This document shows, piece after piece, positions 2,924-45,546 of a stretch of DNA of 64,000 bases. The stretch covers positions 1 through 64,000 of the forward strand of contig MU119288.1 of the NCBI GenBank assembly GCA_014904845.1, in the 5' to 3' direction. Below the pieces are notes generated by a model, which was not told the origin of the DNA, did no database searches, and worked only from the letters and a program-made list of their open reading frames with translations. A program made the translations under genes and the position numbers. This stretch comes from Acephala macrosclerotiorum (taxonomy: Eukaryota > Ascomycota > Leotiomycetes > Helotiales > Mollisiaceae). Within the stretch, counting starts at the first letter, position 1; every line of letters begins with the position of its first letter.

Positions 2924-2928
2924 AAATT

Positions 2929-3135
2929 TGTTAATATTATAGAAATACTTATTACTAGTAATAAATCAAAAACGAAATAAATAAATAAATTAAATAATTC
3001 GTTAATTAATTATTAGTTCTAAATCTAATAAACGCACAAAAGTTGAAAAATATAATCTCAACTCTAGCGCAAATAGCGCTAGTCTCTATTTGGTCTAGTA
3101 CTGCACGTGACTACTAAATTAATATTGTACTTATA
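2929..3135. repeat. Left LTR of nested retrotransposon
   Basis: 207-bp repeat starting TGTTAATATTA and ending GTACTTATA. Most differences from the right LTR are C/T or G/A transitions (for example GTCTCTATTTGG here against GTCCCGATCTGG at 9,215), this copy being the more AT-rich of the two. Confidence 0.82.
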
Positions 3136-9061: not shown

Positions 9062-9269
9062 TATTAGTATTACTAAAAATAGTTATTACTAATAATAAAT
9101 TAAAAACGAAATAAACAAATAAATTAAATAATTCGTTGATTGATTATTAGTTCTAAATCTAATAAGCGCACAAAAATTGAAAAATATAATCTCAACTCTA
9201 GCGCAAGCGGCGCTAGTCCCGATCTGGCCTAGTACCGCACGTGACTACTAAACTAATATTGTACCTACA
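9062..9269. repeat. Right LTR of nested retrotransposon
   Basis: 208-bp partner of the left LTR, ending GTACCTACA immediately before the target-site duplicate AAATT. It keeps more G and C (GCGCAAGCGGCGCTAG) than the left copy, so the two LTRs were mutated unequally. Confidence 0.82.
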
Positions 9270-9274
9270 AAATT

Positions 9275-12200
9275 ATTCGATAAAAATAAAATAATTCAAT
9301 TTATAATTAAATTCGAAAAATTAAATTTCAATATTATTAAAAAATACAAATAATTTTTTATTAAAATTATTAAAAAAAAGAATTTATTTAAAAAATAATA
9401 TTATACAATTAATTAATTATTTTATAATATTTTATAATATAATTAATAAATTTAAAATTATTAAATTATTTAATTATTAATCAATTTATTATATAATATT
9501 GAATATTATAATATAATTAAAATTATTATGTATTAAATATTTTTATAAGTATTATAATCGATATTAATACAATTTAATAATTTATTATCGACGAAAATCA
9601 ATATTTAATTTTTTAATAAATTTAAAACGTTAAATTAAACGAATTTAAAATTAAAAAAATAGTAATTAAATTTGAAATTAACGAAATTTCATTTTTTAAA
9701 ATTATTAATATCGATATATTAATTGAACGTATTACGTTTTATGTGATTTTAATAGACGTATTTTTTTTACTTTATTTTTAAAATATAAATAAATTACGAA
9801 TTAAATTCAATAATTTCAATAATATATTTATTTAAAATAAACGATATATATTTATTATTAAAATATTTAAATATTTTTAAATATTATTTGATTTACTTGA
9901 AAGTTTAATCTATAATAATTATAAAATTTTTATAATAAAAATCGATTTTATTATTTATTATTTAATTGAAACGAAATTCAAATAATTGTATAAACGCTTT
10001 AAGTATTTATCGATTGTTAAATTCGCGCGAGTATTAAAACGTAAAAAATATTTTATAAATTTCAAAGAAATTAAAAAAATAATAAAATTTCATTAATAAT
10101 ATCAAATAAATCATAAATTTTTTAATTATTTCAAGTTTATATTACGCGACGATTATAATTTTAATTATTTCGTTTATTTAAACGTATTATAAATCGATAA
10201 AAAATTAGTATTTTAAATTGTAAACAAAATTATAATATTTTAAATTGCGAGATTTTTCGTTAATATATCGATAAAAAAAATATAAAACGTTTTTCAAACG
10301 TATTAAATTAATATTTATTTTGAATTATTAATATTTATTATTTATAATTTTAGAACGAATTTCAATTTTAAGAAATTTCGCGATAACGTTAAAAATATAA
10401 ATATTGATTTGAAAATTATATTAATAAAAATTTATAATTCGATTGATTTAATAAAAAAATACTACGTTTTATTAAAACGTACGTATAATATATTATTTTA
10501 AGAGTTTTTCGATTTGTAAAAAAAAAAGTAATTTCAAATAACAATTAAAGTAATTAATAATACAATAATATTAAATAATATTATTTTTATATTTTTTATT
10601 TTTAATGTTTATTTTCGAATATTATAATAAAACGCGTTTATAGTATTAATTGTTATTAGAATTAAAACGATAAAAAATGTAATAATTATAATTCGAAAGT
10701 ATTATATTATTCGCCAAATTAATAACGTTTTACGAATAAAAAATAATTTATAAAATTATTATTTGATCGATTTATTTTTAAATTCAAACGTATTTATTTA
10801 AAAAGAAAACAAAAAATAAAAAAAATCGTATACGTTTTTAATAATAAATAAAAAAATATATTAATTGTAATTATTAAATAAATTAAAAAAAATTTATAAT
10901 ATTGTAATAAAATTATTTTATTAAAATTTCAAATAATTCGAAAAACGATTAAAAATTATTTATTAAAAGAAAATTTATTAGAAAATTTAAATTCAAAGTT
11001 AAACTTTTTTAAAAAAAATTCGAAATTAAAAGAAAATATATTCGATTTATTTTATTCGATTAAAATTTTTTTATATATTTTAAAGAAAAATTTACGTTTA
11101 TTTCGAATTGTAATAAAATCTTTTTTTTATATTTCTAATTTCGATAAATATATTTATATAACAATTTATATAAATATAAAAACTTTCAAAATTTATTTAA
11201 TTAAAAAAAAAACTAGAAATAAACAATTGTTTATAAATTTTCGCGTAAAAAGAATTATTATTATTTTAAATAATTTGTTTATAGTTTTTCATAGAAAAAA
11301 AATTAATAAATTGATCGTAAAAAAAAATTTTAAATTAATTTTTAATAATTCGAAAAAAATTGATAATTAATAAATTTTCGATTCAAAATTAATAAATGAA
11401 ATCAAAAATATAAAAACGATTATTTTATACGAAAAATTTCATTTTGTAATTTAAATATTTAATAATAAAAACAAAAAAATAATATTAATTCAATTTTTGA
11501 TTATTTAACGCGTTAATCAATAAATTATTATCGTTTTAATTTTATTTTTTAAATTTAAAAAAATTAGTTTTTATTTGAAAAATATTATTTAAATATATAT
11601 ATAATTAATAATTTTATTAATACGTATTATTTTTATTAAATTTTCGAGAGAAATAACGAATAAATTTTTATTAAACGTTATTTTCAAAGTAATTAAATTT
11701 TTTTACAAAGTTTTAAAAACGAAAATATATTAATATAAAACGTATAATATTTATTATAAAAACAAATTCTCAATAAAATTTTCAATTTTCGATTTTTATT
11801 TACTTATTACAAAAAGCAATCATACTTTATTCGAAATAATCAATATATAAATCGATAATACGTTTATTTTAAAAAATTAAATTTTTATAAAATTAAAAAA
11901 TTTTAAATTATAAAAAATCAAATTATTAATTAAATTTATAGAATTTTTTACGTTGAATATTTTATTATTATTTAATAAATACAAATTAATAATAAATAAA
12001 ATTAAAAATAAAATTGTATTTTTATAAAAAAAAAAAAAAAAAACATTTAAATTTAATTAATTCGAAATTAAATTTTTATAAATAAACGTATTTCGAGTAA
12101 TATATTTAAAAAATATATATTAATTTTATTTATTAATTGAAAATTGCATACGATATATTAATAATAATTTAATATTAAAATCTCAAGAAAAAGTAAATTA

Positions 12201-12540
12201 TAACGTTAAATAAATAATTATAATAATAAATAAATAATTTTGATTATAAATTTCGATTTTTTTATTTGAATTTATATTTAATAAAAAAATTTTTTTTGTA
12301 AACGATTTTTTTGTTATAAATAAAATTTTCAATTCGTAAATCGAATATATTATCGTTTTTAATAATAAAATTTATAGCGATAAATAATTCGAATTACAAA
12401 ATAATTTAATTTATTAGAATTTAATAAAATATAAAAAAATTATTTGTATTATTTTAATTTTTGAATTATATATAATAATAATAAAAATCGATATAAAAAT
12501 TTCGATTTTTATTATTTTTAATTTTATTATAAAACGATTA
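9275..12540. other. AT-rich, RIP-degraded DNA; no gene
   Basis: About 3.3 kb of A/T-dominated DNA between the nested retrotransposon and the Tc1 element. Stops occur in all frames and no protein similarity can be read. It would be the right-hand internal part of the outer element. Confidence 0.65.
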
Positions 12541-13920
12541 CAGTTACCTCGGTTAAGTTCCCGTGATTTTAACTTTAAAAGCGCGTTTTTTCGCGATCGC
12601 GTTTTATCACTCTTATTTAAACTTCTCAAAATGCTACTTCAACGTACTTTTCTCGGGCCAATTGATAGCAATATCCCTCGCAAAGGGCTACTCTTTGAAT
12701 TCGAAAGAGACCGGATTATTGGTATGCACGATGGCGGCGCAAAGAAGGCTGTAATCCAGCGCTTCTATTTTTACTCTTATTCTATTGTCTCGAACACTAT
12801 CACAAAAGAAGCATTACGCGATAACGGTTACTCACAAATCAAATCCGGCAAATCAAAGTCTTATTCTCCTGCCGAAGAACGCTTTGTGCTACGGCATGTT
12901 CGAAAATTCTCGAAGGATATATATGCAGAAGTCATTAAGACATGCTCGATCACATTTAAAAAGGATACGGTGAAGAAGATCTTGAAAGAGCATAGAATCA
13001 AGAATTGGAAGTGCAAACGGCGACTATTTCTTACTCAAAAGAATGCCAATAAGCGATTTGCTTGGTGCCTTGCGCATCGGTATTTGAATGCAAAGAAATG
13101 GAGAATGCATATGTGGAGTAATGAGTGCTCTTGTAAGCGGAAGCGAGGAAAACGGGACGAATAGTGCTTTCGAATATCAATAGAGAAATAGCAACCAAAA
13201 ATGGTTCAAATCTACGGAACGAATAAGAATATGAAAGTTATAGTCTGAGTATACTTTTGAAACCTCGGGCGGTCTAACCTTTATATTATAGATCGAGATT
13301 TTGAGAGTCAAAAGTATAAGTATTCCGCTAATTCTTATATCGAGGTTTTAAACGCAGAACTTGCTTCAATTCACGAAAAACTCGATCTAAAGTATCTATT
13401 CATGCAAGATAATGCTTCTATTCATTGTGCTAAGAAGGTCAAGACTTGATTTAAGGCCAAAGAAATCAGACAGCTCATGGACTGACCTTTTTACTTCTCA
13501 GATTTGAATTTAATCGAGCATATTTGGTGGCACTTAAAGACTAAGTGCTATGAGATGTTTTCTGAGATTGCAGTAAACAAATCGAAGTCAGAACATGCGC
13601 GACAGAGATTGGAATCTTGTCTCTAAGCGGCTTGGGATACTTTAGACTAAGAATTGTTTGATACTTTGAGTGCAAGTATGAGTGCTCGCATAGAAGCTAT
13701 TATTGAGGCCAAAGGGTAGCACACAAAATATTGAGCTCAATTTTGAACATTTCCGAGGGATTTTTGTATCGTTAGAGAGAGAATATATAGGCGCATTAAT
13801 AGTATCAATCAGATCTTAATTTGAACTACAATTAGTGAAATTATGTAAAGTTTAAGTTTTTGAAAAAATATAGAGTGTAGAGTCAAAAAAAAAATCACGG
13901 GAACTTTATTCTAGGGACTG
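12541..13920 (+). mobile_element. Tc1/mariner-family DNA transposon, inactivated
   Basis: A 1,380-bp element starts CAGT and ends ACTG, each flanked by the TA target dinucleotide (12,539-12,540 and 13,921-13,922), the Tc1/mariner insertion signature. The terminal inverted repeats are imperfect over about 30 bp with an identical inner block AAGTTCCCGTGATTTT. GC content is clearly higher than the surrounding AT-rich block, so it inserted after most of the RIP damage. It encodes a broken Tc1-like transposase. Confidence 0.9.
12631..13734 (+). pseudogene. Tc1-like transposase relic (DDE family)
   Basis: The first frame opens at ATG 12,631 and runs 177 codons before TAG at 13,162. It contains the helix-turn-helix region and the block AHRYLNAKKWRMHMWS typical of Tc1 transposases just before the first catalytic Asp. 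That Asp reads Asn (WSNEC, codon 13,120-13,122). Downstream similarity continues through stops: FMQDNASIH (second catalytic Asp), then SDLNLIEHIWWHLK with the catalytic Glu about 35 residues later, and a C-terminal AKG-stop-HTKY. Several stops sit where Tc1 proteins have Trp (TGG to TAG). A transposase that lost catalysis by Asp to Asn and several nonsense changes cannot be autonomous. Confidence 0.88.
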
Positions 13921-14527
13921 TAAAATTGAATTTAATTTTCGTAATTATTTATATCGATTTTTTCTTTTTTTACGAGTATATAATTAAATTCGATATTATT
14001 AAAAAAAAGCGTTTTATAATCGATATTATAATTATTAAATAATCGTACGAACGTAAAAAATTTTTAAAAATTCAATAAATTATTAAAAATAGTAATTCAA
14101 TTAATATTATAATTAAATTTAATATTAATAAATTATTTAAATTACTCGTTAATATTAATTATTTTAATATTAAAATACAAAGATAAATATAACGTTTTAA
14201 AGTTTAAAAATTAATCGATAAAAATAAAAATAATATTAAAAAAAAAAACGTATAATTATTGTTTTAATATTTTTAATATTCTCAAAAATAAAATTTTCAA
14301 TTGACTCGAAGATTATAAATATCGAGTTTAAAAAAAAAAATTTAAATTTAATTTAATCGATCAAATATTATAATACGTAATAATAATTAATTTATAATTA
14401 AATTTCTTTTTAATATTCGATAATAAAATAACGTATTAATAATCGTAATAGTATTTTTTTTGGATTTTAATTTACGAGTTAAAAAAAAAGTTTTTTTTTT
14501 CAAAAAAAAAATTTATTAATATTAATT

Positions 14528-14746
14528 TAATCAAATAATTATTTAAAAAGTCAATTGAATAATTCGAATTATAATTTTTATTACTTTTGACAATAATTAT
14601 TTTAGTATTCACTTTTTAATTTTATGTTTACTTTATTTAATTATATAAATAAATAAGTATTTTTTTTAAAAAAAAAAAAAAAATTGAATTATTAATATTA
14701 AATTAAAATTTTAATATTTTGTAATTTGTTTTTAAACGTATTAATA
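14528..14746. repeat. Right repeat (putative LTR) of the outer element
   Basis: Direct-repeat partner of 731-951. Shared blocks include AATTCGAATTATAATTTTTA, TTATTTAATTATATAAATAA and AATTAAAATTTTAATATTTT. Similarity stops after TATTAATA. Confidence 0.55.
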
Positions 14747-17460
14747 TTTAATATTTCGTATTTTTTACTCGAATTAATTAATTTAAAAATAATAATAATA
14801 TATTTTCTTTTAATTAATAACGAAAAATTTATTTTTACGAGATTAATTTCAAATATTATAAGATTTTTAATAACAAAAACAAATTAACTCGTTTTTTTAA
14901 ACATTTTATAAAAATTGTTTTATAAAATTAATATTTTTTAATATTTTTTTTATTATAGCGATTTTAGTATTTATTAAAATCAAATAATAAACGTTATTTT
15001 TTTATTATTAATTAATAATTATTGTAATAAAATTCAATGTTTTTAAAATATTAATAATTATTTTTATTTTTTTTTGGAATTTTTAAAAACGATATTATAT
15101 TTTTAAAAAAATTTCACGATAAAATTTCGTTAATAAAATTATTATTTTTAATATTGAATTATTATTTCAAAGTTTTATTTTTCGATTAATTCACGTTTAT
15201 TTTTTTTCGTTTTTCGTTTTAAACGTTTTATGAAATTTATCGTTATAATTTAATCTTTGAATATTTTTTTTTTATTTTCGTTTTTCGTCGAAAATTTTCT
15301 CGTGTATTTTAAATTTTATTTTTCGATTTATTTATTATTATTATATTTATTATTATTATATTTATTAATAATTCTTTATAAAACTTATTAATAATCACTT
15401 TATTAAAACTTTAAATATTAATATTATTATCGTTAAAAATATATAATAATAAATTCGATTTTTTTAAATAATAAATTAAATAAATTTTTGAATTTTTTAT
15501 ATATTTTTAAAACGTTGATTAAAATTATAATTAAAGAATTTTTTAATTATTTGTTTTATAATTTAATTATATTAATATCGATTATTTTTAAATATAAACG
15601 ATTATAAAAATCGATTACGATTTTAAAAATTATAATATTATTAATTGTTTTTTAATAGTAATATTTATAATTAATTAATTTATTTATAAATAAATAATAA
15701 TCTACGAAAAAATAATCAATAAAAAAATCGATTTTTTTATTTTTTATTCGTTTGAAATATTTAAAATAATATTATTCGTTTTATTAATCGTTGTATATAA
15801 TATTGATTTTTATTGTATTTTTTTAAACGATTAATAATATATTTTGCGAGAATTTAATCGACGTTAAATTATATAAAATTTTATATTTTTTTTTTTTATA
15901 TTATTATATTTTTTTTATTTATAATTAAAAAAAAAAATTTATTTATATTCTCGTAAAAAAAAAAATTAATTTTAATTTTAATTTATAGAAATTATAATAT
16001 TATTCAATTTTTAAAATATTTTTATTATATTAATATTTAAATCGATTTTTAAATCATTAAATAATACGAAAAAAAAAGAAAATTTTTTTAGTTTTTTAAT
16101 AAAATTGTTTATTTGAATTGAAAATTTTAATACGAATATTTATCGAGTTTTTTAAATTTAAATAATACGTAAAATTGAAAATTGAAATTCGATATAAATT
16201 TTTTTAATAATTGTATATATTTTTTATTAAATTTCTTTTATAAGTAATTCGAATAAAATAAAAAATAATAAATTATTAATTGCGTTTAAAATTATTTTTT
16301 ATATTATAATATTCAAATATTTTTATCGAATTTTTAAATATTTTAAATCGTTAATTTTATTGTATTATTGTTTTTTTTTTTATATTTATATATAGTAATC
16401 GTTTTTTCGTATATTTTATTATAATTGTAAATAAATATTTTTATCGATTTATAATCGATTTCTTTAAAAATTCGTTTTTTGATATATATTAAAAAATCTT
16501 TTATAAATTCGCGTTTTTAATATTATTTATTTAATTTAATTTATTTAATCAATTTTTTAAATATTTAATCAAACAAATTTATATACGTTTTTATTATTAA
16601 AAGTTTTTTTATAAATTGATCAATAATTTTATATAAAAATTCTATATTTATTTAATAATATTTTTAATCGTATTCGTAAATTTTTTTTTTAAAATATTGT
16701 AAAATTCTTTTTTTAAATAATTTTTAATATTGTATTTTAATATAAATTAAATTTATTCTTTGTAAATCGAATTAATATATCGTAAAAATTGTATTTTTTT
16801 AATTTTTAAAATAATTTTATAATTTTTATATATATTATTGTATTATTTCAAAAAAATCGTAATTACAAATAATTTGCGAATTATAATTTTCAAAAAAATT
16901 AAAATTAAAATATAAAATAATAAAATAATATTATTTTTTAACGTTATAATTTTTTTTTTTTTGTATTAAAATTTTTTTTTTATATTTTAATTTCTACTAA
17001 AAATAAAACTAATTATTATAAATAATCGTTATAAATTTCTTTTTTTCTTTTTTATATTCGTTTTAATATTAATTATTTCAAGTAATTCAATACGTAATTT
17101 TTATAAATTAATATTTTTTTATAATTTTACAATTTTATAATCAAATTATTTAATTTCAAATAATACAATTAAAATAAAAAAATTTTATTAATTAATTTTC
17201 AATTTTCGATTTCTAGTAATTTAAATTTCTTTTTAATAATAATAAAAAATAAAATATATAAATCGTATATAAACAATTCTCAACGAAATCTATTAAAACA
17301 ATTTATATTTTAACGTCGTTTTATTAATATAAAAAAATAATAAAATTAAAATAAAAAAATTTAATCGTAAATTAATTCGTTTTAATTAGTAAATTAAATT
17401 CATTTGAAATAATTCGTAATTCGTAAATCAATTAATCAATTAATCAAAGTAGAAATAGAA
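14747..17460. other. AT-rich, RIP-degraded DNA; boundary with gene-bearing DNA at about 17.46 kb
   Basis: Same composition as the left part and no open frame. Composition changes abruptly near 17,460-17,500, where ordinary GC content begins. No gene, RNA or repeat could be recognised here. Confidence 0.8.
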
Positions 17461-17499
17461 AAAGTTCTTGATTAATCTATAGTAAGCGAAAGCTCCTTA

Positions 17500-17646
17500 T
17501 GTACTAGAAGACACGTGACCAGTACTGCTCTCGAAACTAGCTATTTACAAGGATTTTTGAAAGGAGAGTATATAGTCCCACCACACTAGTCACGGTTGCG
17601 TTCGGCTCTACGCTCGAGATTGTTGTGAGTTGGTCCCCACCTGGTG
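17500..17646 (+). repeat. Possible LTR relic at the AT-rich/GC boundary
   Basis: The stretch begins TGTACTAGAAGACACGTGACC and contains a TATA-like GAGTATATAG followed by a pyrimidine/GC-rich leader. This resembles the layout of the other LTRs in the window (TGT...CACGTGAC...). No second end, no target-site duplication and no partner copy was found, so the call is weak; it could equally be the promoter side of a lost gene. Confidence 0.25.
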
Positions 17647-31561: not shown

Positions 31562-34483
31562 ATGGCGGAAAGCACCACCGTCCCAGCCCCTGCCGTGGAA
31601 GCCACTGCGCCAGCGGTGAATGGAGGTCCACCACCAGGTAGCCCCCCCGCGCCATTCTCCCCCATCTCTCCCCAAGGACTTCCTCCTCTGCAACCAGGAA
31701 TGCCCATGGGGCCTCCACCAGGACTTCCACCTGGATTCATTCCTGTCGCATTTCCACAGGAATTGAATTACCTTCGAGAACAGCACCGAAAGTATACAGA
31801 GCTTCTGGAGAGAAGGAATCGAGAGCTTGAAGCGCGTGTAGCCAATGGCGGTAGAAGGATAGGTCGGAAGGTAAGCTCTCCCTCGTAGATGGTCGTGAAG
31901 AAATATACTAATATCTGCAAAGAGATCCGGATCTCGATCTGGGTCCGACAGTGGCAGCGATCGAAGTGTTTCTCGGTCCTCAGTAAGTACTAACATTCCA
32001 CATCACATCCTCACCGTCACAGCTTATTCATCGCTGGAAGTCCATGGTTGACTATTTTTAGGCCAAAGACAAGAAGGATGAAACATCTAACAAAGACGGC
32101 AAGCCTCCCCAATACAGGATAACGTATTGGGAGGAAGTAGGTGATGGTCGATGGGACGACGTACCAGAAGAGGACGTCGACAAGAACGAAAAGAAGACGA
32201 AGAAAAAGACAGCGAAAGTCGAATACGCCTTCACCTATCGAAAGTTCCGAGGAAAGGATGCCGATCCTCCGGAAGTCGTGTTTGGTCCCAGGATGTGCTC
32301 TCTATTCCGCAGGCTGCTTCCCCACTTCCCAGAGCATGACTTAGACATCGAAGATCCCATATTCGTCTCTCCGTATCCTATGTTGATCTATAATTGGGAT
32401 CTTCTGGAGAAAGAAGCAAACAAAGAGACCGAAGACGTCGAAGAGAAACAAGACCTCGAGAATCTGAAAGTGATGATGCAGATTATGTCGACGAACTCTG
32501 GAGACCCAAAGTTGGATACATATTTCCGCAGTCGAAGCGCAAATTTGAAGAATGGCAAGATCACGTACGAGACTGTATGGACGCTTTTCCCACCAGGTGA
32601 GATGGTCATATCCAGGCCGTTCCTCGAAAAAGATCAGCTTTTCATCGTCCAAGATTGCCTCCGTTACGGCTGGCCGTTGATGGAAAGCAATCGTCGACGA
32701 AAACCAGCTCCGTGGACCGTCATTTGTTGGTCCTATGATTGGGACGGCGCATACTTCGATCGAAAGCCTTTCGAGTTCCACAGTACGTGAAATTCTGCCC
32801 TTTGATTGAGGAGATATTCAGAGCCGAGCTCTTCGCGAGCTGCAAACTCGACTCCTAGATTATACTTGAAATGCCATACTGATCTATCTATAGTCGAGTA
32901 TTTCTCAGGCACACGCTTCATTAACTCATTGAACATCTATCCAGTGAACTTTTATCGTGAGCCTGGGACCGACGCGACCTGGGAAGTGAGCTTAAAGCCT
33001 ACATTGATTGAGAGAGGGAAGAGGTTTAGAGAAATTTGCGTTGCTCCCAAAGGTTCGCGGATGTTCGATTACAATGGCTTAGCGCTCTCTCGTGGGAGGG
33101 GTATTTCGGCGCAGGCTACGCCAGGTGAGGAGTCGCCCATTCCTGGAGGTTATGGTGCGGACGGATTGAGTGGAGATTATTGGGACGAGTTCTCTTCAGA
33201 ACCTCCAGTGTTCAAAACACCATCGACCAAAAAGACCCAGGTACGATCCACTCGTCAATTTCAAAAATTTAACCACTGACTGTTGTTGTTTTAGGTGAAA
33301 GGGACTGTCATGGTAGATTTCGAGGCCTACGTTCAGCACGCCTCAATCAACGTTCCGCTAGGATCATTGGAACCATCCATTCGCGAGAGCGAATGCGGAT
33401 GCTCAACGTGCCAGAAGAACGACATCCTACGTAAAACTCTCAAATTTGATTATGACAAGGTCAAGGCTTCGGTGCCGCTCGATAAGTGGGAAGAAGACCA
33501 ACTTCTGATCTGCCCTCCACGTGTCATGGGCTACGCGATGCGTCCCGGACAGTGGGCGCAGTTGCAGGTTGAGGAGGTGAAGACTGCAGTGATCAATCCC
33601 GAAGCAGATGCTTTCGATCACAAGCTTTCGTTGAATGAGAAGACCAAGAAGCTCATCAAGGACTTAGTTGTCAATCATGAGAAAGGCAAGAAACGTGATG
33701 GAAAAGGACTTGATGATCTCGTTGAAGACAAGGGCAAGGGATTGGTGTTATTATTCCACGGTATGTTAATGCCCCCAAGCTAAACGAGATCAAGAAGTGA
33801 TGAAATTTCCAGGTCCTCCAGGCGTAGGAAAGACGCTCACAGCCGAAAGCGTCGCAAAGTCAACAGGAAAGCCACTATTCTCGATTGGTGTCTCTGATAT
33901 CGGTGTCAATTCACGAACAGCCGAGAAGAACCTACGAAGGTTCTTCAACCTTGCGACTGATTGGGAGGCAGTCATGCTCATCGACGAAGCAGACGTCTTC
34001 CTCAACAGCCGTGGTCAAGGAGAGACCAACCTGGAAAAGAACGCACTCGTCTCTGTCCTGCTTCGCGTTCTGGAATACTATGAAGGTATCCTCATCCTCA
34101 CAACGAATCGAATCAACTCTTTCGACGTGGCAGTACAATCCAGAGTTCACCTCGCTGTCAAATACCAGAATTTCGACGAGACCCAAATTTCTGAGATCTA
34201 CTCTATCTTTCTCAAGCAGGTCAAAGACGACGACAATATTGAGGACTGGGGTGAGATACGAGGCTGGATCAAGATCGAGAGTCGAAGCTCGAAGTTTAAT
34301 GGTCGTCAGATTCGAAACATTGTTTCTGCTGCTTTGGGTCTGGCTCGAGCTGAGCGCAAAAAGCTGAACTCGCAGCATCTGGATACCATTGTACGGAAGA
34401 CCGGAGAGTTCCACGAAGAGCTCGCGGAGCAACGCAAGGCGTACGAGATGAAACAGTTGGCAAGAGGATACGGTGAAAGGTAA
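31562..34483 (+). CDS. AAA-family ATPase with N-terminal fungal (DUF7025-like) region
   Basis: ATG 31,562 to TAA 34,483 in six exons (31,562-31,870; 31,923-31,982; 32,062-32,782; 32,894-33,240; 33,295-33,760; 33,813-34,483) gives about 857 residues with no frame break. The N-terminus is Pro/Gly-rich with a coiled segment (YLREQHRKYTELLERRNREL). The middle has the DUF7025-like blocks FGPRMCSLFRRLLPHFPEHD and EYFSGTRFINSLNIYPVNFY, then ICPPRVMGYAMR. The C-terminal AAA module shows Walker A GPPGVGKT (split by the last intron between HG and PPGVGKT), Walker B AVMLIDEADVFL, a sensor-1 LILTTNR and arginine-rich SRVHLAVKY. It is a soluble-looking ATPase; its substrate is unknown. The third intron (32,783-32,893) is homologous to an intron in the sugar-transporter relic. 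Confidence 0.9.
32783..32893 (+). repeat. Introner-like intron copy A (111 nt)
   Basis: Intron GTACGTGAAATTCTGCCC...CTATCTATAG in the AAA ATPase gene, splitting an Ile codon in phase 1 (A/TC). It aligns along its full length with the 111-nt intron at 44,240-44,350 in an unrelated gene; about three quarters of positions agree by eye. Other introns in this gene are 49-79 nt and dissimilar. Confidence 0.8.
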
Positions 34484-34877
34484 ACATATGGAGTGGGATG
34501 TTGCATGGCTTGTAAGCGAATGTACGAAGACTTGGACAGAAAATTATACATGAAGTCGCTTGATTTATGATTGAAACTAGACCATGCAGAAATCGGACTA
34601 AGAATATCTCCAAACAAACTCCGCCCATAAATAAATGCCGGCGACGGCAATCATGGATGCTAAGAGGCATCGTCCCAAAAGAGAAACACCCGTAAGCTCG
34701 AAATGACCAATTCCTCTCGCCTGCAAGAGTCGATGCCTTCAAGCTCGTCATCAAGACCTTGAAAATCCTGCGCCATTTCACTTCCTAACAAGATCGCTAA
34801 CCTGGATGATTGTTAACCTTGATCTGAAATGTTAGACTCTGGAACTTACAGGCAATGAGGAATCGATCAGTTGGCTT

Positions 34878-35590
34878 TCAGGGCTCTTCAAGATCGGTGG
34901 CAGGAGTGGCAACCGCAGGTGGGGGTAGAGCAGGAGAGATTCGAACCATGGCCACACTGTTGTTGGCAGTCTTGACATCCGCGGGGCCGGTGGGCGGACG
35001 GTTGAATTTCGACAAAACACTTTCCGGAGGAGGGGTTCTTGATCCACCGGAAGGGAGAGGAGAGTCATCTGATATATCACTCCCACTCTCATAACAGGAG
35101 TCGTTGCCATCCGAGAAGTCCCCGATTTTCTCTAGGAAATGACCATCATTGTAACCTAGAGCTTGTTCGAGGAGTCCGCGGCCTGCATCTTGAACTTCAG
35201 TCCTATCTCCATTGGCTTGACCATGATTGAATGCAGGAGAGGAGTCGATGCCCAGATCTTGGATGGAGCGCGATCCACCTTGACGAAGGCGGCTTGTTGG
35301 TGTAAAACGATGGATCTCGGTGAGCGAAAGCTGACGTCTAGCCGGAAGCCTATGATAGGAGCCTTGGTCAAGTCGATAATCAAGTGCACTTTCTGTATCA
35401 TCAAAGTTCTGGAATCCACCGAAAGGGAGGGCAAAGGTATGATCCACGCGAACCTTGGTGGCCTTGCCCAAGCATTTTCCGCCTTCAAGCCAGTATCGCG
35501 CTCGTCCATTGGCGTTAGCCTCGAGTTGCAGCTTTGAGTTGAAGTTGAGTCCAAGGGGACTGTAACGTTTCTTGTCGTTACTTATTTCCC
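34878..35590 (-). CDS. Hypothetical low-complexity protein, gene model incomplete
   Basis: A minus-strand frame is open from about 35,590 to the stop at 34,878 (about 235 residues). It includes LNFNSKLQLEANANGRARYW, FALPFGGFQNFDD, a Ser/Asp-rich stretch and a Pro/Ala-rich tail (ISPALPPPAVATPATDLEEP). No ATG opens this frame upstream before a stop, so at least one 5' exon is needed; candidate exons at 35.6-36.25 kb read SRRGIVKPGTTDAQADAHF and RTLRGSSVARDSESSLLSIM, but I could not join them in frame. No domain is recognised. The end abuts the 3' side of the AAA ATPase gene (tail-to-tail). Confidence 0.4.
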
Positions 35591-36896
35591 CAGAAGTGCA
35601 CTGTCGATGTCAGTTCCAGTATTTCCTGAAGGTTCAGCTCCTTGTACAAAATGAGCATCTGCTTGAGCATCAGTTGTCCCAGGCTTCACTATACCACGAC
35701 GATGACTGGGTGAAGGTATGCTCTATGCTCCAGCTAGATAGGGGTAGGACAGCAAATACAGAAACATTCCCCCAGGCGAGCCTTCCACGGCGGTAAATGT
35801 ATCATGCATCCGACCCCGGGTGTGTTGAGCAGTAAAGGAGGCTTGGTTGCAGAAACAGTATCTATAAATGAAACAGAGCGTAGCTCGCGCGATTGAAAAC
35901 TGCAATGAAAAGTTCGAGAAGAAAGGGGAATAGGTACTGCTGTGAGAGCACCTTCTACCCGCGAACTCACTTATAACCTCATGGAGACAGTCTAAGAAGT
36001 CGAAGTCACACTACAACAAGATATGCACCCAACACAGGGTATTCTTAGTCTCCGATTTTCCCATTCTTCCAAACTTCGACGTGAACATACTGTCAAAGAC
36101 ACCGCTGGAAATTCTGTGAGAGCGTTCACTCCACCTTCGAGCCATGATTGATAGTAAAGAAGATTCAGAATCCCGGGCAACGCTCGAGCCTCGTAGTGTT
36201 CTCATCCTCAAATCATGCACCTTTGTTACATCAATCTCGGCCACAACCCTCCCTGAGAAGCAGCTCAGATAACGCGATCATATCTTTTTTAAAAAAAGAA
36301 AAGAAAAAAAAGTGAAACAACAAATCGATGCTCTGAAAGGAGCTGGACGAACTCGAAGAGTACGGAGTACATCTAACACCTCACCCTAGCTGGTGGCTCA
36401 ACATCCGGCCGATGGACTTGGAGGAACAGGACACAGGTTCAGCCAACTGCTCGCCTTAGGCCAACTTTAGGCAATCAATGAATTAAGAATTCGACATGGC
36501 AGATATGAAAGAAGATAGAGAATCCCCTGGGCTGGAAAGAGAAAGAAGCAGGAAGAGAAAACCTTGAAGAGATCGACAATAGAGGCACTATATCGCGGCC
36601 GAGAGAAAGTGCTTCCCCAGAAGCCACTTGCACCACGGGAGTGACGAATGAGGCGATACCCGTGAGCCCCGACCTCTATTACCAAGCATATCCGACGAAG
36701 CTGTCAGTCGTCCATGAGCCAATAGGGACGCGTGTTTCAAAGGCAGTTACTCCGAGATCATGAACTTCTGCCGTGTGTCGACGCCGTATAAAGGTTTGCT
36801 GTCGCCTATGTTGAGAAGCCCCTCTTCAACACAAAGCTTCGACTTCTCGCTCTTCAGTTTATTCACTAATCTGTTGCTCTTCTGAAAACTTTCTCC
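35591..36896. other. Unassigned region, possibly 5' exons of the hypothetical gene plus a promoter
   Basis: Minus-strand frames at 35,734-35,970 and 36,011-36,244 could be exons of the gene ending at 34,878. 36,250-36,890 contains a run of A/G (TTTTTTAAAAAAAGAAAAG near 36,290), purine-rich stretches and a CT-rich leader before ATG 36,897. No other feature is seen. Confidence 0.35.
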
Positions 36897-37998
36897 ATGT
36901 CTCCATTCAGTGCACCACTAGCGGAGTAGAAGTCGTCGCAGCCTTTTCTAAAGCCGTAAAAGATAAGACCTGTGCGTCCTCTCCTCCCTCCACAACATCG
37001 ATCACTGAAATCCCCAAGTCGTCATCACAGGCCCCTCAGCCAGCGGCCTCGGCGCCCAAATCGCTATCTTCCTCGCCTAAGGCCACCCCGCCAGCATCCT
37101 CCTCGGCCGCACTCCATCAAAAGTTGACCCCGTATTCGAAGAGATCAAGAACATCAGTTCCTCAACAAACGTCCAATTCATCCCTCTCGACCTCACACGA
37201 TTCTCCTCCATCAAGACCGCCGCCACAGTGATCTTAAGACCGTGGACAAGATCGACGCCCTGATCAACAACGCCGGCATCATGGTCTCATATCCTACACC
37301 TCGACAGCAGACTGTGTAGAAGCACAATTCGGAAGCAACCACATCGGGCATTTCCTTCTCACCAACCTCCTTATACCCAAGATCCTCACTGCAGGCCCAG
37401 GAGCCAGGATCGTGAATCTATCCAGCAACGGATACCAAGTTGGCGAGGTGCGATTCGACGATTATAATTTCTCCGATGGGAAAGAATATAATGTTTGGAT
37501 GGCATATGCCCAATCCAAGACTGAGAATATTTTGTTTACCGTGAGCTTGGCGGAGAAGTTGAGTCCGAAGGGGATAAGTGCTTTTGCTGTTCATCTGGGG
37601 GTTATTTGGACGAATTTGGGGGCTCATGTTCCAGGCGAGGAATGGCCTGTTTTTAGGAAGACGTTTGCTGATCGAGGTATACGCTTACTTCCTTCCGAAT
37701 TTGACGTTACAACTCATAGGTCCAGGCTTCCACTTAACTATAGGCATTAACAAGGATGTCGCCCAAGGAAGATCATACACCCTCACTGCAGCCTTGGACC
37801 TGTCACTTGAAAGTGAGTGCAACTCTAGATGATACTATGGAAACAAAACTGTCGCTAAGGTTAGAATATTCAGGCGCTTACCTGAGCAGCTGCGCTCCGG
37901 AGGAAACTCCTGAATATGCTAATAGCTCCGAGAACGCGCAAAAATTGTGGGAGTTGAGTGAGAAGATTGTGGGCAGAAGTTTGACTTATGAAACGAGA
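36897..37998 (+). pseudogene. Short-chain dehydrogenase/reductase (SDR) pseudogene
   Basis: Starting at ATG 36,897 an intron (about 36,972-37,018) is followed by VVITGPSASGLGAQIA, the SDR cofactor motif TGxxxGxG. NVQFIPLDLTRFSSIK, DALINNAGIM, ARIVNLSSNGYQ and YAQSKTENILF (Tyr-x3-Lys) follow, and the C-terminal block is NAQKLWELSEKIVG. The pieces lie in different frames: shifts occur near 36,925, 37,225 and 37,290, TAA interrupts the frame after IAIFLA near 37,078, and TGTGTAG interrupts later. The family is a classical SDR of about 320 residues similar to retinol-dehydrogenase/WW-domain-oxidoreductase-like fungal proteins; the substrate cannot be inferred. Confidence 0.78.
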
Positions 37999-38734
37999 AC
38001 ATGGAAATTAGCATTTGCGATTTCCCAGCCTCGAGTAGACTTTCTGGGCAAAATTTTCTTGCACCAGGACGTTCGCAGTTCGAAATACCTTTCCTGGCCT
38101 AGGACAGCTAGAGAAAGTCTATGGAAGGCTGGGAGACTAAAGACGCTGATCGGAATTGAAAGTGCAGTGGATATGTTGAGTGATAGGAAGGGATAGAAAG
38201 TGTAAACAGATCAGGTATATATTTCCCCTCTATACCTCCGTGTTCATGTCACCATTCCTCGGGGGAAGCGCAAATATTCTGGCTTTGTCTCCAGTGGAGG
38301 ACTCCTGTCTGCCTCATCAACTTCGGCAATCGAAGCTTCGATGGTCGATGCTAAAGGTAACCGAACCGTCGTCTAGAGTATCCGCTGACCCCACAATTGG
38401 CTTGCTCGTCGCTGCTTCATCTTCGTGTTCTCTCGTGTGCGCATCCTAGATGTCCAAAGGTAGCGCAGAGATCGATGCCTCAAGTGTGCGGAGAAGTTCT
38501 CGAACAGAACAGCGTTGTCTGGCACGGACCTAGTCATGTGTTCCTTGCGCTGCAATGTTGCCGAGGAGTGAGCAGCGTTTTGTCGCGTTGTTATGGCGAG
38601 TCTCTACTAATCAGAGAGCATAGGAAGGAGTAGGTAGGTTCGTAGAATCGCAAGGAAAGGGAGGTTTTAGAATAGAGATGGAGGTGGGGGCTCCATTGTG
38701 CTTTCCAGAACATGCCCTTTGAGCTGGAACTTGT
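37999..38734. other. Intergenic region; no supported gene
   Basis: The SDR frame runs on to about 38,196 without SDR similarity. The remainder shows only short overlapping frames. No repeat or RNA was recognised. Confidence 0.45.
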
Positions 38735-41700
38735 TCAAGTGATCCTCCTATTCTCTGGGATAGCCTCCAGCCCAAATGCCGTCCTGATAGACACAGGTGA
38801 CAGCACAATAGTATCATCGACGTCACTTTTTTTCGATGGATGAGATTTCCACCCGTCATTAGATCTCTCCTCGCCATAAGGAGGAAGACTTGCCCCTCCT
38901 AGATTACGCAGGATATCCTCGCAATTAGCGTCGAAGCGCAGATTCCACAGCCGAATACTAGCCATGAACTTCTCGGTCGCTTCTAGCTGTCTGTCTCGGC
39001 CAAATATGGAGTCAACGAATTCGGTCCCAGCATTCTTGCCGAGCTGTGCCGAGTCGTTCCCTTTCTTCTTTCCTGCTTTAAGCATAGGCTCCTGGCAAGA
39101 TTTCAGAAGTTTCTTAAGCTTGTTAAAGAGCCTCTCCCCAGATTCGATAAAGTCGTCGACCATCTCCTTGTCCTCCGACCTGCGAACTCGGTCTATAGAT
39201 TCCTCGGCACGCTTGACCTTTCCAGCTAGTTGGATCAGAAGAAGCCATAGCTCACCTGACATGTCTGCGATTGGTGTGGCCGGGCCGTGGTGGTAGACTG
39301 TCCAGTCGTATATCCACTTGCCCAGAGAATTCGCATCGAACACGCTTCCGAGGAGCATAATCGGTTCTTCAGTAGGATCCCAATTTTTGATCGAGTAGCC
39401 GGGAGGAATTCGATGCCTGCGTGCATCCTCTTCAGTTGCTTTTCGGGTGAGTGGAGCTTTCTTACTCTGGGCCGGTTGGGTGTATGGTCGTGCTGGTGTC
39501 GAAGATCGGCGACGTCGACAAGGGGCGTCGTTATACGATGGCCTGGAGATCAAAGAGTTAGCTATTGCGGTTCTTTTGCTCCTCAAAGGTCATATTCACT
39601 TACTGCTCCCACTGTTTCGGCTTTGGGCAAACTTTGCCCTCATGCATCACGAAGTCATATTCAGGATCACCGCGGTGTATGTGTGCAGCAGATCCATAAG
39701 TCGGTGGCAATTTAGCGTTTAGAGAGAAATAATATGGCGAGCATAGGCGGTAATCACTATCACGAGCTGCACCATGCCCACGGTATCTATAACCTGACCT
39801 CTTAGTCTGCGAATTATATGCGCGGTAAATTACCCCATCGATCAGGTAATCCACATACTCGTTTGCGTTCTTGTTAGGCTCTCCGGAAGACGCTCCAAAG
39901 TATGGAGAATTTCTCTGCTGAGGACGTCGTGGCGTGGGCGAGTTGTATTGGTAGTTTGGATGGTAGTTGTATTGTCCTCTAAATTGTGCCCCTGGCTTGG
40001 ATTCAGGGGTGCCCGTCAATTTGTTTAGATTGCTGTCATTCAAATTTCCAGAATCATCTTCACTGGCATTGTGCGATTCCACAGACACGGGTTGAGCACT
40101 CGATGAGGACAGCTTTTGCTTTTTCTCCCAACGAGGAGAAGACCAGGAAGCTCGTTTGCCATTGGAACTGGTGCATACAGTTGTCCTCTGTATGGTAGAT
40201 GTGCGAGGGTTTCCAGCTTTTGATGAATGACTGGGGCGCCGTGATGACGCACTCATTCTCGTCTGACTGAAAGATCGTTTAAGCAAGTCGACATACGTGA
40301 AATATTGCGATTCGGGTTCTTCTTTGATGAATTGCACTCTCCCTACGATCTTGCTACGAAGGTCGAATTCTGCTATGGGTCTGGGACATGAGATTATGGC
40401 GAACGGCACAGCGGATCGTTTTTGGTACAAACGTTTCTCTAGCTCGAGGCGGAGGTCCCGGACCATGCGCCATTGCTCAATGTCTGAAAGACGACCTCCG
40501 GCAATCTGCTTCAGACGACGATTCTGCTGAGCATCACGATGAAGGAAAGAGTCCACGATGTCTTCCACTCGACTCGTCCTGATTTTCCGCTCGCTGTCGG
40601 TTGTGTCAGACTGCACGCGATCACCCGACGAACCTGGAGAGACTGGATCAACCGAGTTCGTGATAAGTTTGTCCTCGAACTTCTGCCGCCAATAATCCTG
40701 AACAGCGGACGGGTCATCTCGGACCTCGCTACCGCAGTCTATATGAGCAATATCCGAGGAGCCTTCTGAGCGGGCCGGACCCGACGTTGCATTCTCGTCG
40801 ATGAAGCGAAGTGACTCCTCGTCTGGCTTTTTCGGACTGGTGGCGTAGCGTTGCGTCCACAATTTTGCGGCTTCGTGAAAGCCCTCTGGGTCCTCGACAT
40901 ACTTTTGTGCGATCTCGGGTACCAGTGGATCATGAACGTTGGGGGACGCGAGCAGTCCACAAATCGCGATGAGAAGTGCAAGTAAAGACCACATATCTGG
41001 CGATGTTCGTTGTGACCAAAGAGCTGTGCTTTCCGCGAAGTGGCCCCTCAAAGAGGGGGGTACTTTCGAAGGATTCCATTTCTGTTCATAATCTGCACAC
41101 AAGGCACGAGTTCTTGGATCAATGTTTGGGTGGTATATCTTTGTATGGAAGCGCAAGGTAGGGGCACCCGGTGGGGTCTTCTGAGATGCTGTCACCAAAA
41201 TCCAGAAGATACCGCCTTGGTAAGCTGTGTCAGGAGGCCCTTCGATGCTGGCTAATATTTTTCCAAGATCATCTCCGACAGGCGTTGCACTGACGAAGGG
41301 AACATGAGCTTTTCGAATCAGCTTCAGTTCATGGAACATTCTCTTCGCAACCGAAGTGCTGTTATGCGCTTGGACAACCAATTTTGGTCCAATGTCGATC
41401 CAGTAATAAAGGTCTGAATCAGCGATCTCCGCCATCGCGTCACCGTCATTAGCATCACCAGTCTCGAAGCTCAGCATCCTTGGTGCTGATCGCGACCTTC
41501 CAATCGTTTCGGCGAGCCATCGTTCGTGCTGTGGAGTATCTCTCGATGACGCGGGGGTTCCGAGGTCCTCCGAAATATCCATATCAGAAAAAGACATGGT
41601 TCCGTCTAAGTCGAAGCTGCATTGCTTGTGCATATCAATGCAGTTCGAGCATGACAGTATTCCTTCTGTGGTAGAGCACGAGAGCTTAGCATCTTCACAT

Positions 41701-42588
41701 TCCGCGCATGACCGACTGTTCATGATACTGTTGGGCATGGACTCGTCAACGTCCATTTCGTCCACAGTCTCAAGGACGTGTTCGGACGGCTTTGTCTTGG
41801 CAGTGTGGAACGAGTACGTCGAAGCATTGCTGCGAGGTTGAATGGCCCTCTCGGCATCCACCATCGATGCAATCACCACGGAGAGTCTCTTACTGGCAGC
41901 ATCCGAAACAGTCTTGTGGATGGAAGAGCCAGAGTGATGTGAAGTAGCCTCCTTAAGGAGATCCAAATCCTCTTCGTTTGTGATTGTATTGATCGCTTCG
42001 TGGATACGAAGCGCTTCGTAACGCTGCTGGACTACGCCAAGAGACGTTGTGACCTGATACAAGCCGTCTAGTAGCGTCGCGTAAGGCCCATATCGTCGTT
42101 CTTCTTGTGGACTTCTGTTTTTGTCCTTTCTGCACTCGAACTTTTAATCTCTCAAAAGACTTCTGGAAAATCCGAGTCCCGCGAAGAGTGGTGAGACCTT
42201 CTCAAAGACCAGACCCGTTGTAACGTCATATTTTCCATCAATCGCGGCCACGCTGTCTAGAAGCTGTCGAATGTTGTCCAAAGCTCGGACTTGTGGAAGG
42301 TCAAGACGGGTGTTGTATGGTATGGTAGGTTCGTGATCGAATCGCCCAGATGGCAGACCGACAGACTCTCCCCATAGTTCGAATCGTAGTCGTTGCAGAC
42401 CAAGCTAGACACGAACCTTTGATTAGCAACGAACGTAAAGCTTTCAAGAGGTCTAATTTTCTTACCAATGCAGATAATTCCTCATGTTCCCTGCTACAAT
42501 CCCTGGCAGAGACAACGACGTCAAAAACATCTACGCATGCGGAATACAAGGCTGCGACGCCAAGTGCCAAACCAACAGCTTCAGCCAT
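38735..42588 (-). CDS. HeLo - Zn2Cys6 - ubiquitin-conjugating (E2) fusion protein, two probable frameshifts
   Basis: ATG 42,588 (good context AAATGG) opens a HeLo domain: MAEAVGLALGVAALYSACVD, intron ending GTGTCTAG, then RLRFELWGESVGL and VRALDNIRQLLDSVAAIDG. Near 42,150-42,070 the frame shifts twice (FERLKVRVQKGQKQKS lies in another frame; TAA at 42,144-42,146). An 820-codon frame (42,062-39,600) follows. It has a perfect binuclear zinc cluster CX2CX6CX8CX2CX6C (CAEC...CSNC...C, residues ~119-148), then a UBC fold (~236-410) with HPNI, a Cys nine residues later (ALCADY, ~322) as candidate catalytic Cys, an insert, and LLASPNVHDPLVPEIA. A 59-nt intron (39,542-39,600) joins it in phase to a C-terminal domain (PTEEPIMLLGSVFDANSLG, KWIYDWTVYHHGP) ending at 38,735. 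HeLo domains act in fungal cell-death and incompatibility proteins; E2 domains carry ubiquitin. The role is inferred. Confidence 0.75.
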
Positions 42589-43686
42589 TTGTCATTAGAG
42601 CATGGTGTATACAAAAGGGATGGGCATCGAATAGGTATGGTTTCCGCTGCATTTCTAGCAGTCGGGAATGGATGGGAAACTATTGAAAGAGATGGAAGCC
42701 GTGGAGGGAAAGAGGTGTTGTACGTGCTGGCAAGTGAAGTGCAAAGACGCTGCGCCACCTTGTGGTTCTGGACGAACGGCTGATCAGAAGGCTGACTGAG
42801 GAATTCTCTAAATGTACAAGTCAAATTAACATAGAAGGAATATTATAATCTTCCAACGAATCCCAGGTGTAGATTAAAGTAAAGACTTGACGTTGTTTTC
42901 GTCTGAATGCTGCAACAGCTTCTGCAGCGACGAACAAGATGCCCAGCAAGTGGGTCTACAGTCACGTGTACCTTTCTTTTCCACCGTCCCTTTTGTGTCG
43001 CTTTTCTTGTATGCAACTTCTATTTCTCTCAATCTAAGCCCCTTGATTTCTCATTTTGGCCTTCCAAAGCTCTCCATGATCCCGCAAACGCTGCAGTGCA
43101 AGGCCACCCGTTCGTATCCTCCTCAGTGGCCACGAACCTTATACCTGTTCATCGGGAGCTTCATTCCGATACGATAGGCCTGATTGAGGCTTCTCCCGGA
43201 ATCATGGGTAGTAATTGCATTTTCCAAAGGTCATTGGCTACAACTTCACAAACCGCTTCTCCAGACTCCATATCCTCAGGACGTGATATCAAAATTTCAC
43301 TCCACCACTTTCTCAGCATACAATCTATGGCGCTCAGAGAACCCTAATATGGCACATTCTGGAGAACTCTTAGTAGGCAAGATTCTTATTGGCCGTGGCG
43401 ATAGCAAAGTTGCAACGGTGCTGCCGGCGAACGTGGACAGTATGCCGAACTTCTCCACTTCACCAGTGTTATCCTTCAACTCTTCTCACGCGACCATTCA
43501 CGATCAGAAGATTTCTTGACAACCATGCCTACTCTTATCAACGGCCATGCTTGGAATCGATAGAGCTCCGTGGTTGTCCAAGCAATTGGACGCGACCGTG
43601 ACCTGATATATCTCTACGATGTCGCCCCTGAAGATGAGGTTTCTCCTCTCCTTCAACCGTCCGGAAGCGCGACGTGATATCTCACG
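42589..43686. other. Upstream region plus an unrecognised coding relic (+)
   Basis: 42,589-42,830 would be the promoter of the HeLo-E2 gene. From about 42,990 to 43,674 the plus strand shows coding-like pieces in three frames (for example HPFVSSSVATNLIPVHREL, HSGELLVGKILIGRGDSKVA, VVVQAIGRDRDLIYLYDVAP before TGA at 43,674). They look like one gene broken by shifts, but I do not recognise the family. Confidence 0.35.
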
Positions 43687-45546
43687 ATGGGCTTCTCAAT
43701 CAAAGATGTTAATGTTGAAACTCCTCCTAAGGATATTGCCGAGGGCGTCACCAAAGAGATTGGTGGTGATGCCCGCCAGGCGACCGAGATCGAGCACCAG
43801 ATGACATTCTTCGAGGCCGTCAAATTATACCCTGGTGCCGTCGGCTGGTCAATCTTCTTCTCGCTCGGTATAATAATGACTGCCTTCGATCCTCAATTGC
43901 TAGGAAACCTATACGCGACTCCGGCTTTCCAGAAAGACTTCGGGTATCTCTTCGAAGGGACTATATCATCAGTGCAGCTTGGCAGACTGGGTTGGGTATG
44001 GGAAACCCAATTGGGCAATGTGTGGGAGCTCTTGGCGCGGCGTATCCAATGGAATGGTTTGGCCGGAAGAAGGTATACACATTTCTGGCCGAATTCAGAC
44101 GATTTTTCCTGACAATAACAGACATTTGCTGCCTGTGTTGCCCTTACAGCAGGGTGTATCTTCATCCAATTCTTCGCACGATCGCTCAACGTCCTACTTG
44201 CAGGCGAACTCCTTGGTGGCCTCATCCTCGGTACCTATGGTAAGTGAAATCGTGCCCTTTATTTGAAGGGATATTCGCAGTCAATGTATTCGCGAGTACT
44301 ATGATGCGACTCCTAAATCATACTTCAAATCTCACACTGATCTAATGTAGCAACAATCGCTCCAGCTTACGCATCTGAAGTCTGCCCGATCGCCCTTCGT
44401 GGCGTCTTGACAGCCTTCATCAATCTCTGCTTCGTTATAGGACAATTGATCGCCAATGGAGTTATCGCCGGTACCTCACAGCTAGACACCCATTGGGCCT
44501 ATTCTGCCCCTTTCGCCGCGCAGTGGTTCTGGCCTTTGGTCATTCTCATTGGGATGCCATTTGCACCTGAATCTCCTTAGTAGGTGCGAAAAAGTCGAAT
44601 TAAGGATGCGGAGAAGTCGCTCAAGAAATTGTCTTTCTCTGGTTTCAATGTCAAGCCAACATTGGCTATGATCATTGAGACTGACCGCCTGGAGTTGGAG
44701 ATGGAGACGGGTACCACATACTGGGACTGCTTCAAGCCTATTAACCGTCGTCGGACGGAAATATCTGTTGGGGTTTACACCATCCAAGTCTTCAGCGGTA
44801 TCTATTTGGTAGGATATGCCACATACTTCTTCCAACGTAAGTGTCCATTCAGATATCTGAGTTCTCTTCAGCGTCCGAGACTTATCGAACGCGCAAAGCT
44901 TTACTAACACATCCTAGTGGCCGGCCTCCCTACTGACAAAGCCTTCGACATGGGCGTTGGCTACCTTGCAGTAGGCTTCGTTGGCACCCTTGCTTCATGG
45001 TTCCTCCTCTCCAAAGTCGGTCGTCGCCGCATCTACATCTACGGTATCGCCGTTCTCACAGTAATGATGTTCCTGATCGGCTTCCTTGACTGCGCGCCCC
45101 ACTACTCTGAGCGTCCCGGCATTATATGGACCCAATCCGTTTTCATGATCATCTGGAACGGTATCTACGATTTGACGATTGGTCCTGTATGTTTCGTGAT
45201 CATTTGTGAGGTGTCAGCGACGAAAGTTAGGGCAAAGACTATTACGATTGCAACGGCTGTTCAGGCAGTGATGGGCATTGTGATGACGGTTGCGATTCCG
45301 TATATGATCAATCCTGATCAGGCAAATATGAGAGGGAAGCTGGGATTCTTTTTTGGTAAGCTCTGAGCATGATATGTGTTGGCACTGGATATGAGCTAAT
45401 AGCACCAAGGTGGATTGTCGCTCATCTCATTCGTTTGGGCGTACTTCCGTGTCCCTGAGACTGTCGGACGGACGTATGAGGAGCTCGACATCATGTTTGA
45501 GAGGAAGCTTCCCACAAGGGCATTCAAAAATTATAAAGTTGTTTAA
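43687..45546 (+). pseudogene. MFS sugar (maltose/alpha-glucoside-type) transporter, lightly damaged
   Basis: ATG 43,687 to TAA 45,546 in five exons with introns 44,073-44,121, 44,240-44,350, 44,837-44,917 and 45,356-45,409. The protein (about 520 residues) has the fungal alpha-glucoside permease pattern: WSIFFSLGIIMTAFDPQLLG, EWFGRKK, LAGELLGGLILGTYATIAPA, EVCPIALRGVLTAFINLC, TTYWDCFKPINRRRTEI, SKVGRRRIYIYG and the C-terminal VPETVGRTYEELDIMFE. Damage is limited to a 1-nt loss near 43,961 (GGACTATATC for expected GGACTTATATC) and two adjacent stops TAGTAG at 44,578-44,583, where this family commonly has two Trp residues after SP. Everything else is open. It would have been a proton-sugar symporter of the plasma membrane. 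Sequencing error is possible for the 1-nt change but unlikely for the double stop. Confidence 0.88.
44240..44350 (+). repeat. Introner-like intron copy B (111 nt)
   Basis: Intron GTAAGTGAAATCGTGCCC...CTAATGTAG in the sugar transporter, splitting an Ala codon in phase 1 (G/CA). Same length as copy A in the AAA ATPase gene. Conserved blocks include TGCCCTTT, GATATTC, TTCGCGAG, CGACTCCTA, CATACTT (TATACTT in A) and ACTGATCTA. The branch-point-like CTGAT lies 10-15 nt before the acceptor. Confidence 0.8.

Follow-up and report, generated by a model that had tools for sequence, protein, structure and literature searches.

Two genes in a 64,000-nucleotide (nt) stretch of the Leotiomycete Acephala macrosclerotiorum (assembly GCA_014904845.1, contig MU119288.1, positions 1 to 64,000; hereafter the window) harbor introns of identical length and related sequence, which raises the question of how such introns came to lie in both a DUF7025/AAA-ATPase gene and the relic of a sugar transporter gene, and what determined the sites of their insertion. 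Our analyses indicate that both introns are almost certainly introners (introner-like elements, ILEs), i.e. self-copying spliceosomal introns, and that they are members of a family of which this genome contains 99 copies or more. Insertion of these elements is seamless, yet bound to a short exon motif, which differs by subfamily. This motif is an addition to the original prediction, which was based on the window sequence and proposed an active or recently active introner family.

The two predicted 111-nt introns, referred to as L001 (ATPase gene) and L009 (transporter relic), were confirmed with respect to their coordinates (Table 1), their GT start and AG end, and their phase 1 position in the best joined frame. 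Their end-to-end identity, estimated by eye at about three quarters, holds for a gapped multiple alignment (74%), but not for the ungapped register, in which only 56 of the 111 positions match. The local alignment score of the pair was 99, whereas none of 2000 dinucleotide shuffles scored above 36. L001 represents a 127-nt form of the element minus 16 nt, and L009, an old and diverged copy, carries a separate deletion of its own; since the deletions are different, the equal length of the two copies is a coincidence. The predicted neighboring introns are indeed shorter (54, 49 and 81 nt), and their proposed unrelatedness holds for the 81-nt intron, the only one of them used as a genome query, which matched itself only.

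Searches of the genome (69.66 Mb, 778 contigs) revealed further copies in many genes. With L001 as query at least 42 matches were obtained (40 of 76 candidates scored), with the 127-nt form at least 40 (40 of 86 candidates scored) and with L009 only 5. Pattern searches were compared with reversed patterns and resulted in 53 versus 2 matches for a CA-containing pattern (up to 3 mismatches), 61 versus 1 for a pattern of the 5' part and 83 versus 0 for one of the 3' part. The CA-containing pattern is biased towards its flank, yet all copies assigned by eye to subtype A (see below) were also recovered by the flank-free 5' and 3' patterns, as judged by an inspection of the lists. After removal of 8 duplicate loci, a profile search (E below 1e-4) confirmed 96 of the 100 remaining loci (the exceptions being L059, L061, L064 and L106) and all three loci added later. 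Two additional queries contributed two new places only (C166:61502 and C57:127371; of 93 and 95 candidates, respectively, 40 each were scored), and the core pattern, when searched outside introns, gave four exact matches, every one at a known copy. Two copies on the same strand are located 1.4 kb apart (G000:C193:100,698 and 102,133), perhaps in one gene.

The copies share a common layout, from GT(A/G)NGT(G/A) at the 5' end to CTGAT(C/T)TATCTATAG at the 3' end, and are mostly 121-129 nt long (given range: 111-137 nt), with the length variation located at a GCTCCTCA-like repeat. At the profile ends, 86 of the 99 copies start with GT and end with AG, and a branch-like CTGAT or CTAAT is visible in most aligned copies. 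Mutated GT or AG ends were noticed in L057, L063, L102 and L111 (AT, CT, AT and AA). A 75-nt introner with a deleted core, L046 (1,559-1,633, minus strand), is already close to the length of an ordinary intron and looks like an intermediate stage on the way to it. A conserved hairpin, for which folding had been suggested as a check, did not find support: RNAalifold returned zero consensus pairs for 53 copies, and single-fold z-scores of six copies ranged from +0.31 to -3.04 (window copies: +0.31 and -0.54). An 8-bp GAGCCGAG/CTCGGCTC stem forms in most long copies and is paired in 91.4% of cells; its covariation was no higher than in shuffles, and L001 and L002, which are 99% identical and located in unrelated sites, both lack the 3' arm, so that we rejected the idea that the hairpin is conserved or needed. 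No target-site duplication was detected in 53 copies (offsets -4..+5 and -6..+4, lengths 2-10), the best whole-word excess being 8 versus 3.6 expected for 2-mers. Inspection of the aligned ends and the missing consensus pairing gave no indication of terminal inverted repeats, for which no dedicated search was made.

The genes interrupted by the element are unrelated, almost all copies lie in sense orientation, and removal of a copy restores the reading frame. When the flanking exons were joined, the shorter side showed a median of 54 open codons, compared with 32 and 26 for the frameshifted and 24 for the antisense joins (89 copies; 7 of 96 excluded). In a codon model (92 copies; 4 of 96 excluded) the best upstream and downstream frames coincided in 74 copies, where one third would be expected, and the sense score exceeded the antisense score in 76. 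Among the 64 copies with both agreeing frames and a winning sense score, 38 are in phase 1, 21 in phase 2 and 5 in phase 0. The joined host proteins are mutually unrelated. Pfam families were identified in 9 of 10 scanned proteins: in five, a domain above the cut-off extends through the junction and in two a domain below it, whereas in two others a domain ends before or begins after the junction; one protein was without any domain. All 99 copies have flanks with a GC content of 44-55%, i.e. none is located in AT-rich DNA. The protein matches point, with moderate confidence, to a helotialean host and not to a Dothideomycete: the enoyl-CoA hydratase interrupted by L070 is 83% identical to a protein of Mollisia scopiformis, and helotialean names prevail among the named top matches. 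The nearest homologue of the ATPase was found in Pseudogymnoascus (73%) and that of the enzyme interrupted by L055, which is less clear in this respect, in Penicillium (70%), the latter being probably a patchily distributed gene.

The order of the copies in a tree, together with their flanks, revealed two classes. In subtype A, as assigned by eye from the tree (n = 52), the exon positions adjacent to the insertion point show C in 41 copies at -2, A in 47 at -1 and T in 33 at +1, whereas subtype B (n = 28) shows T in 22 at -1, G in 22 at +1, A in 16 at -2 and G in 16 at +2. A simple rule captures the subtypes by intron base 7, which is either G (mostly GTACGTG) or A (GTATGTA-type). After exclusion of 13 of the 99 copies for damaged ends and of 2 of the remaining 86 for another base 7, 56 G-type and 28 A-type copies were compared with random positions of the same phase in the same exons (5000 resamplings). 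CA|T, the vertical bar marking the insertion point, surrounds 28 of the 56 G-type copies (mean of the resamplings 1.7, maximum 8), and CA| precedes 39 of them (mean 5.5). The A-type copies are located at T|G in 17 of 28 cases (mean 1.9, maximum 8) and at AT|G in 12 (mean 0.4). Exon base -1 being A distinguishes the two types with a Fisher p value of 4e-12. No flank position of 25 predicted ordinary introns from the same loci exceeded 0.24 bit.

To judge from alignments of the joined proteins, insertion is seamless at the three sites compared (L001, L070 and L055), where homologues align ungapped and no residue appears to be gained or lost. The L001 site reads FEFH|IEYFSG beside FEFDIEPFSG and FEFNIEPFSG in relatives, and its split codon A|TC encodes an isoleucine that is retained in the nearest homologues. 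At the L070 site (GIV[M]EAAS) the methionine is present in 11 of 11 rows, and the L055 site (IPDS[M]SFE) stands beside related residues. Since no codon was added at these sites, the flank word was not brought by the element, and the ATG|GAG site of L070 is clearly old.

Protein matches also appear to support splicing of the introners, albeit indirectly. The spliced ATPase protein is 100% identical across the L001 junction to P0001, an open reading frame (ORF) of 809 amino acids on a contig no longer than 2,955 nt; because the genomic gene has at least two introns in that span, P0001 is best explained by a transcript. Likewise, P0038 (259 amino acids, contig of 1,380 nt) is 100% identical across the L070 junction. 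Continuous ORFs were thereby found at two of the three junctions searched, on contigs of unstated type. The gain at the ATPase site is recent, as the original prediction had supposed for the family. ORFs of the relatives P0004, P0005 and P0006 (75%, 76% and 74% class) traverse the L001 site uninterrupted and diverge from the coding sequence exactly at the start of the ordinary 54-nt intron further downstream. This departure point fits unspliced genomic ORFs, from which it follows, for this one site, that the relatives possess the ordinary intron and are without the introner. Furthermore, L001 matches L003, which is located on another contig, at all 111 aligned positions and differs from it by the 16-nt deletion only, which argues for a recent origin of L001; its identity to L002 and L004 is 99%. 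The flanks of four close copy pairs were no more similar than low-scoring local matches. Hence neither a lack of further copies nor ancient, position-conserved introns was found.

How the elements reach their exon words can be approached by a model, in which we infer an RNA intermediate, the insertion chemistry and the basis of target recognition. Each copy brings its own GT 5' site, CTGAT-like branch site and TAG 3' site, so that a new insertion could be spliced and the host protein would stay unaltered. The intron RNA released by splicing would re-enter, without a seam, the sense strand of coding sequence that is transcribed. It would then become fixed in the DNA, either through reverse splicing into DNA or through an insertion combined with reverse transcription. 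A feature of the element would bias the machinery to short exon words that were already present, namely CA|T in the case of the GTACGTG-type and (A)T|G(G) in that of the GTATGTA-type subfamily. We consider it slightly more probable that the elements are RNA-borne than that they are DNA transposons. It is a tentative proposal, which we regard as less likely than not, that the ascomycete introner itself, probably as RNA bound in the splicing machinery, recognizes an exon word of 3-4 nt, which differs by subfamily (CA|T versus AT|GG). In effect, this would be guided reverse splicing with a logic comparable to the intron-exon recognition of group II introns.

Several observations weigh against this model or against the underlying assignment as spliced introns with subfamily-specific targets. 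The motif is a preference, since half of the G-type copies are not located exactly at CA|T; crossovers occur as well (6 of 56 G-type copies at T|G, 1 of 28 A-type copies at CA|T), and the second window copy, L009, lies off the motif. The base-7 rule was picked after the data had been seen. A search for guide-like pairing between the elements and their own targets resulted in a top excess of 0.26, which equals the maximum of 40 permutations; at one stretch an excess of identity (0.40 versus 0.22) could not be separated from the effect of subfamily, and no inference was drawn from it. C|AYGG, a possible third target word, at which the GTATGTAATATTC copies L077, L085 and L089 are located, was rejected as a third motif because it fails in one of the four such copies (L109). 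With respect to coding potential, the sense score was not above the antisense score in 16 of 92 copies, some of which lie in plain sense genes, for example L070 (enoyl-CoA hydratase) and L082 (transporter-like protein). Moreover, GT or AG is not intact at the ends of the profile in 13 of 99 copies. For L055, the start of the identical match P0163 coincides with the junction, a place where GTG could open an unspliced ORF, and this match therefore provides no evidence for splicing.

Among the alternatives, a non-autonomous DNA transposon might also account for the family, although we regard it as rather unlikely. Such an element would insert seamlessly and without target duplication at a short word and possess GT/AG ends by chance, with selection leaving only sense copies in exons. 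A sequence-specific target is more readily explained by an integrase or transposase than by plain reverse splicing, and marks of DNA transposons are present in most introner families outside the ascomycetes according to the accessible text of PMC9860276. The lack of target duplications in 53 copies and of visible inverted repeats argues against such an element, as does the finding that no copy lies in AT-rich DNA and that antisense or intergenic copies were not recognized, although non-genic space was not examined separately. Helitrons, which have a 5' TC and a 3' CTRR end and insert between A and T, deserve mention here, as the target of subtype A also splits A and T. However, the ends of the introners are GT and TATAG, and subtype B splits T and G, so that we rejected membership in this group.

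Less probable still is that insertion is random and the motif was left by selection for exon contexts that are spliced well. The flank bases do correlate with intron bases 4 and 7, which are part of the 5' splice site, but the ordinary introns of the same loci are nearly without flank preference, and CA| and T| differ from CAG|, the usual exon context pairing with U1; in addition, to obtain 39 CA in 56 copies from about 5.5 expected, most insertions would need to be lost. Template switching at short homologies between donor flank and target, with the flank word of a founder being inherited within each subfamily, would explain subfamily-specific words at both ends. In subtype A, however, flank agreement does not grow with element identity: pairs with more than 95% identity agree at 0.55 of the motif positions and 0.24 of other positions, compared with 0.57-0.68 and 0.25-0.29 for more distant pairs. 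Hence longer homology to the donor site is not the way in which the word is passed on, and we consider template switching very improbable. Finally, that the introns resemble each other by chance, or are ancient and were conserved after gene duplication, can practically be dismissed in view of the shuffle and reversed-pattern controls, the unique control intron, the unrelated host proteins and the introner-free relatives; nothing was found in favor of either.

Other features of the window are listed together with the two introners in Table 1. The transporter relic (window 43,600-45,400) shows a frame change upstream of its paired TAG codons. Positions 1-17,500 of the window form an AT-rich block with mostly 10-16% GC (one 2-kb bin: 29%), compared with 45-53% in the adjoining DNA; the block resembles the outcome of repeat-induced mutation and contains a 255-nt inverted pair (74%) at 3,482-3,736 and 13,934-14,188. 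A search of Rfam at the gathering threshold gave no match in the window from 17,500 to 64,000.

Table 1 Coordinates of the two introner copies and associated features in the window.
Feature	Position	Strand	Remarks
Left half of subtype-A target motif	32781..32782	+	CA at upstream exon end
Introner copy L001, subtype A (GTACGTG...CTATAG)	32783..32893	+	111 nt, phase 1, at CA|T, DUF7025/AAA-ATPase gene
Right half of subtype-A target motif	32894..32894	+	T, first downstream exon base
Ordinary intron (predicted)	33241..33294	+	54 nt, same ATPase gene as L001
Ordinary first intron of transporter relic (predicted)	44073..44121	+	49 nt, by eye
Introner copy L009 (GTAAGTG...AATGTAG)	44240..44350	+	111 nt, phase 1, sugar-transporter relic, at ATG|CAA
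Two neighboring in-frame TAG codons	44578..44583	+	transporter relic
Ordinary intron (predicted)	44837..44917	+	81 nt, transporter relic, genome-unique, negative control

We compared the family with known mobile introns, as far as the accessible parts of the respective papers describe them. ILEs of the Dothideomycetes Fulvia fulva, Dothistroma septosporum and Zymoseptoria tritici (PMC4457414) likewise consist of near-identical copies of GT-AG introns that occur in unrelated genes, exceed ordinary introns in length, were inserted seamlessly and were gained recently in a species-specific manner; the family described here differs in its Leotiomycete host and its subfamily-specific exon word. The stable conserved secondary structure that characterizes these ILEs was not detected here, either in the 53-copy RNAalifold analysis, in the six single folds or in the stem covariation. 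This comparison is one by description. In the accessible text of Gozashti et al. 2022 (PMC9860276) the ascomycete introner families stand apart in having neither inverted repeats nor target duplications, and direct insertion appears to be the way in which an Alternaria example replicates. The present family, which may already be among those counted there, shares the genic location and the lack of both marks, whereas an insertion word, present here, is not reported in that text. The sister stwintrons of Hypoxylaceae and Xylariaceae also spread seamlessly in coding exons, in sense orientation only and without target duplication (PMC8469720, PMC9024468, PMC12403724). They are, however, nested [D1,2] introns with terminal symmetry and without exon-flank bias, as a section title of PMC9024468 and the absence of nucleotide bias in the exons bordering 288 stwintrons (PMC12403724) indicate, while the elements described here are single GT-AG introns with a strong flank bias. 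Introners of Micromonas and Aureococcus are mobile introns in many genes, too (PMC9860276, PMC12403724), but exhibit target duplications and/or inverted repeats and a splice site co-opted from the target, none of which was seen here. Searches of one open-access library, supplementary tables aside, yielded no printed Leotiomycete introner family and no ascomycete insertion word, although other work may already mention such a word. Ascomycete introners that lack target duplications and inverted repeats are already known; what looks new is the target choice.

For ascomycete introners, whose movement lacks the marks of DNA transposons and whose locations are described in the accessible literature as seemingly random exon sites, a target word that depends on the subfamily provides a direct handle on how these introns move. 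It rules out blind insertion at repair sites as the sole rule and predicts where new copies will land, and an exchange of intron ends could show which bases set the target. In addition, the family adds a Leotiomycete genome to those with very recent intron gains.

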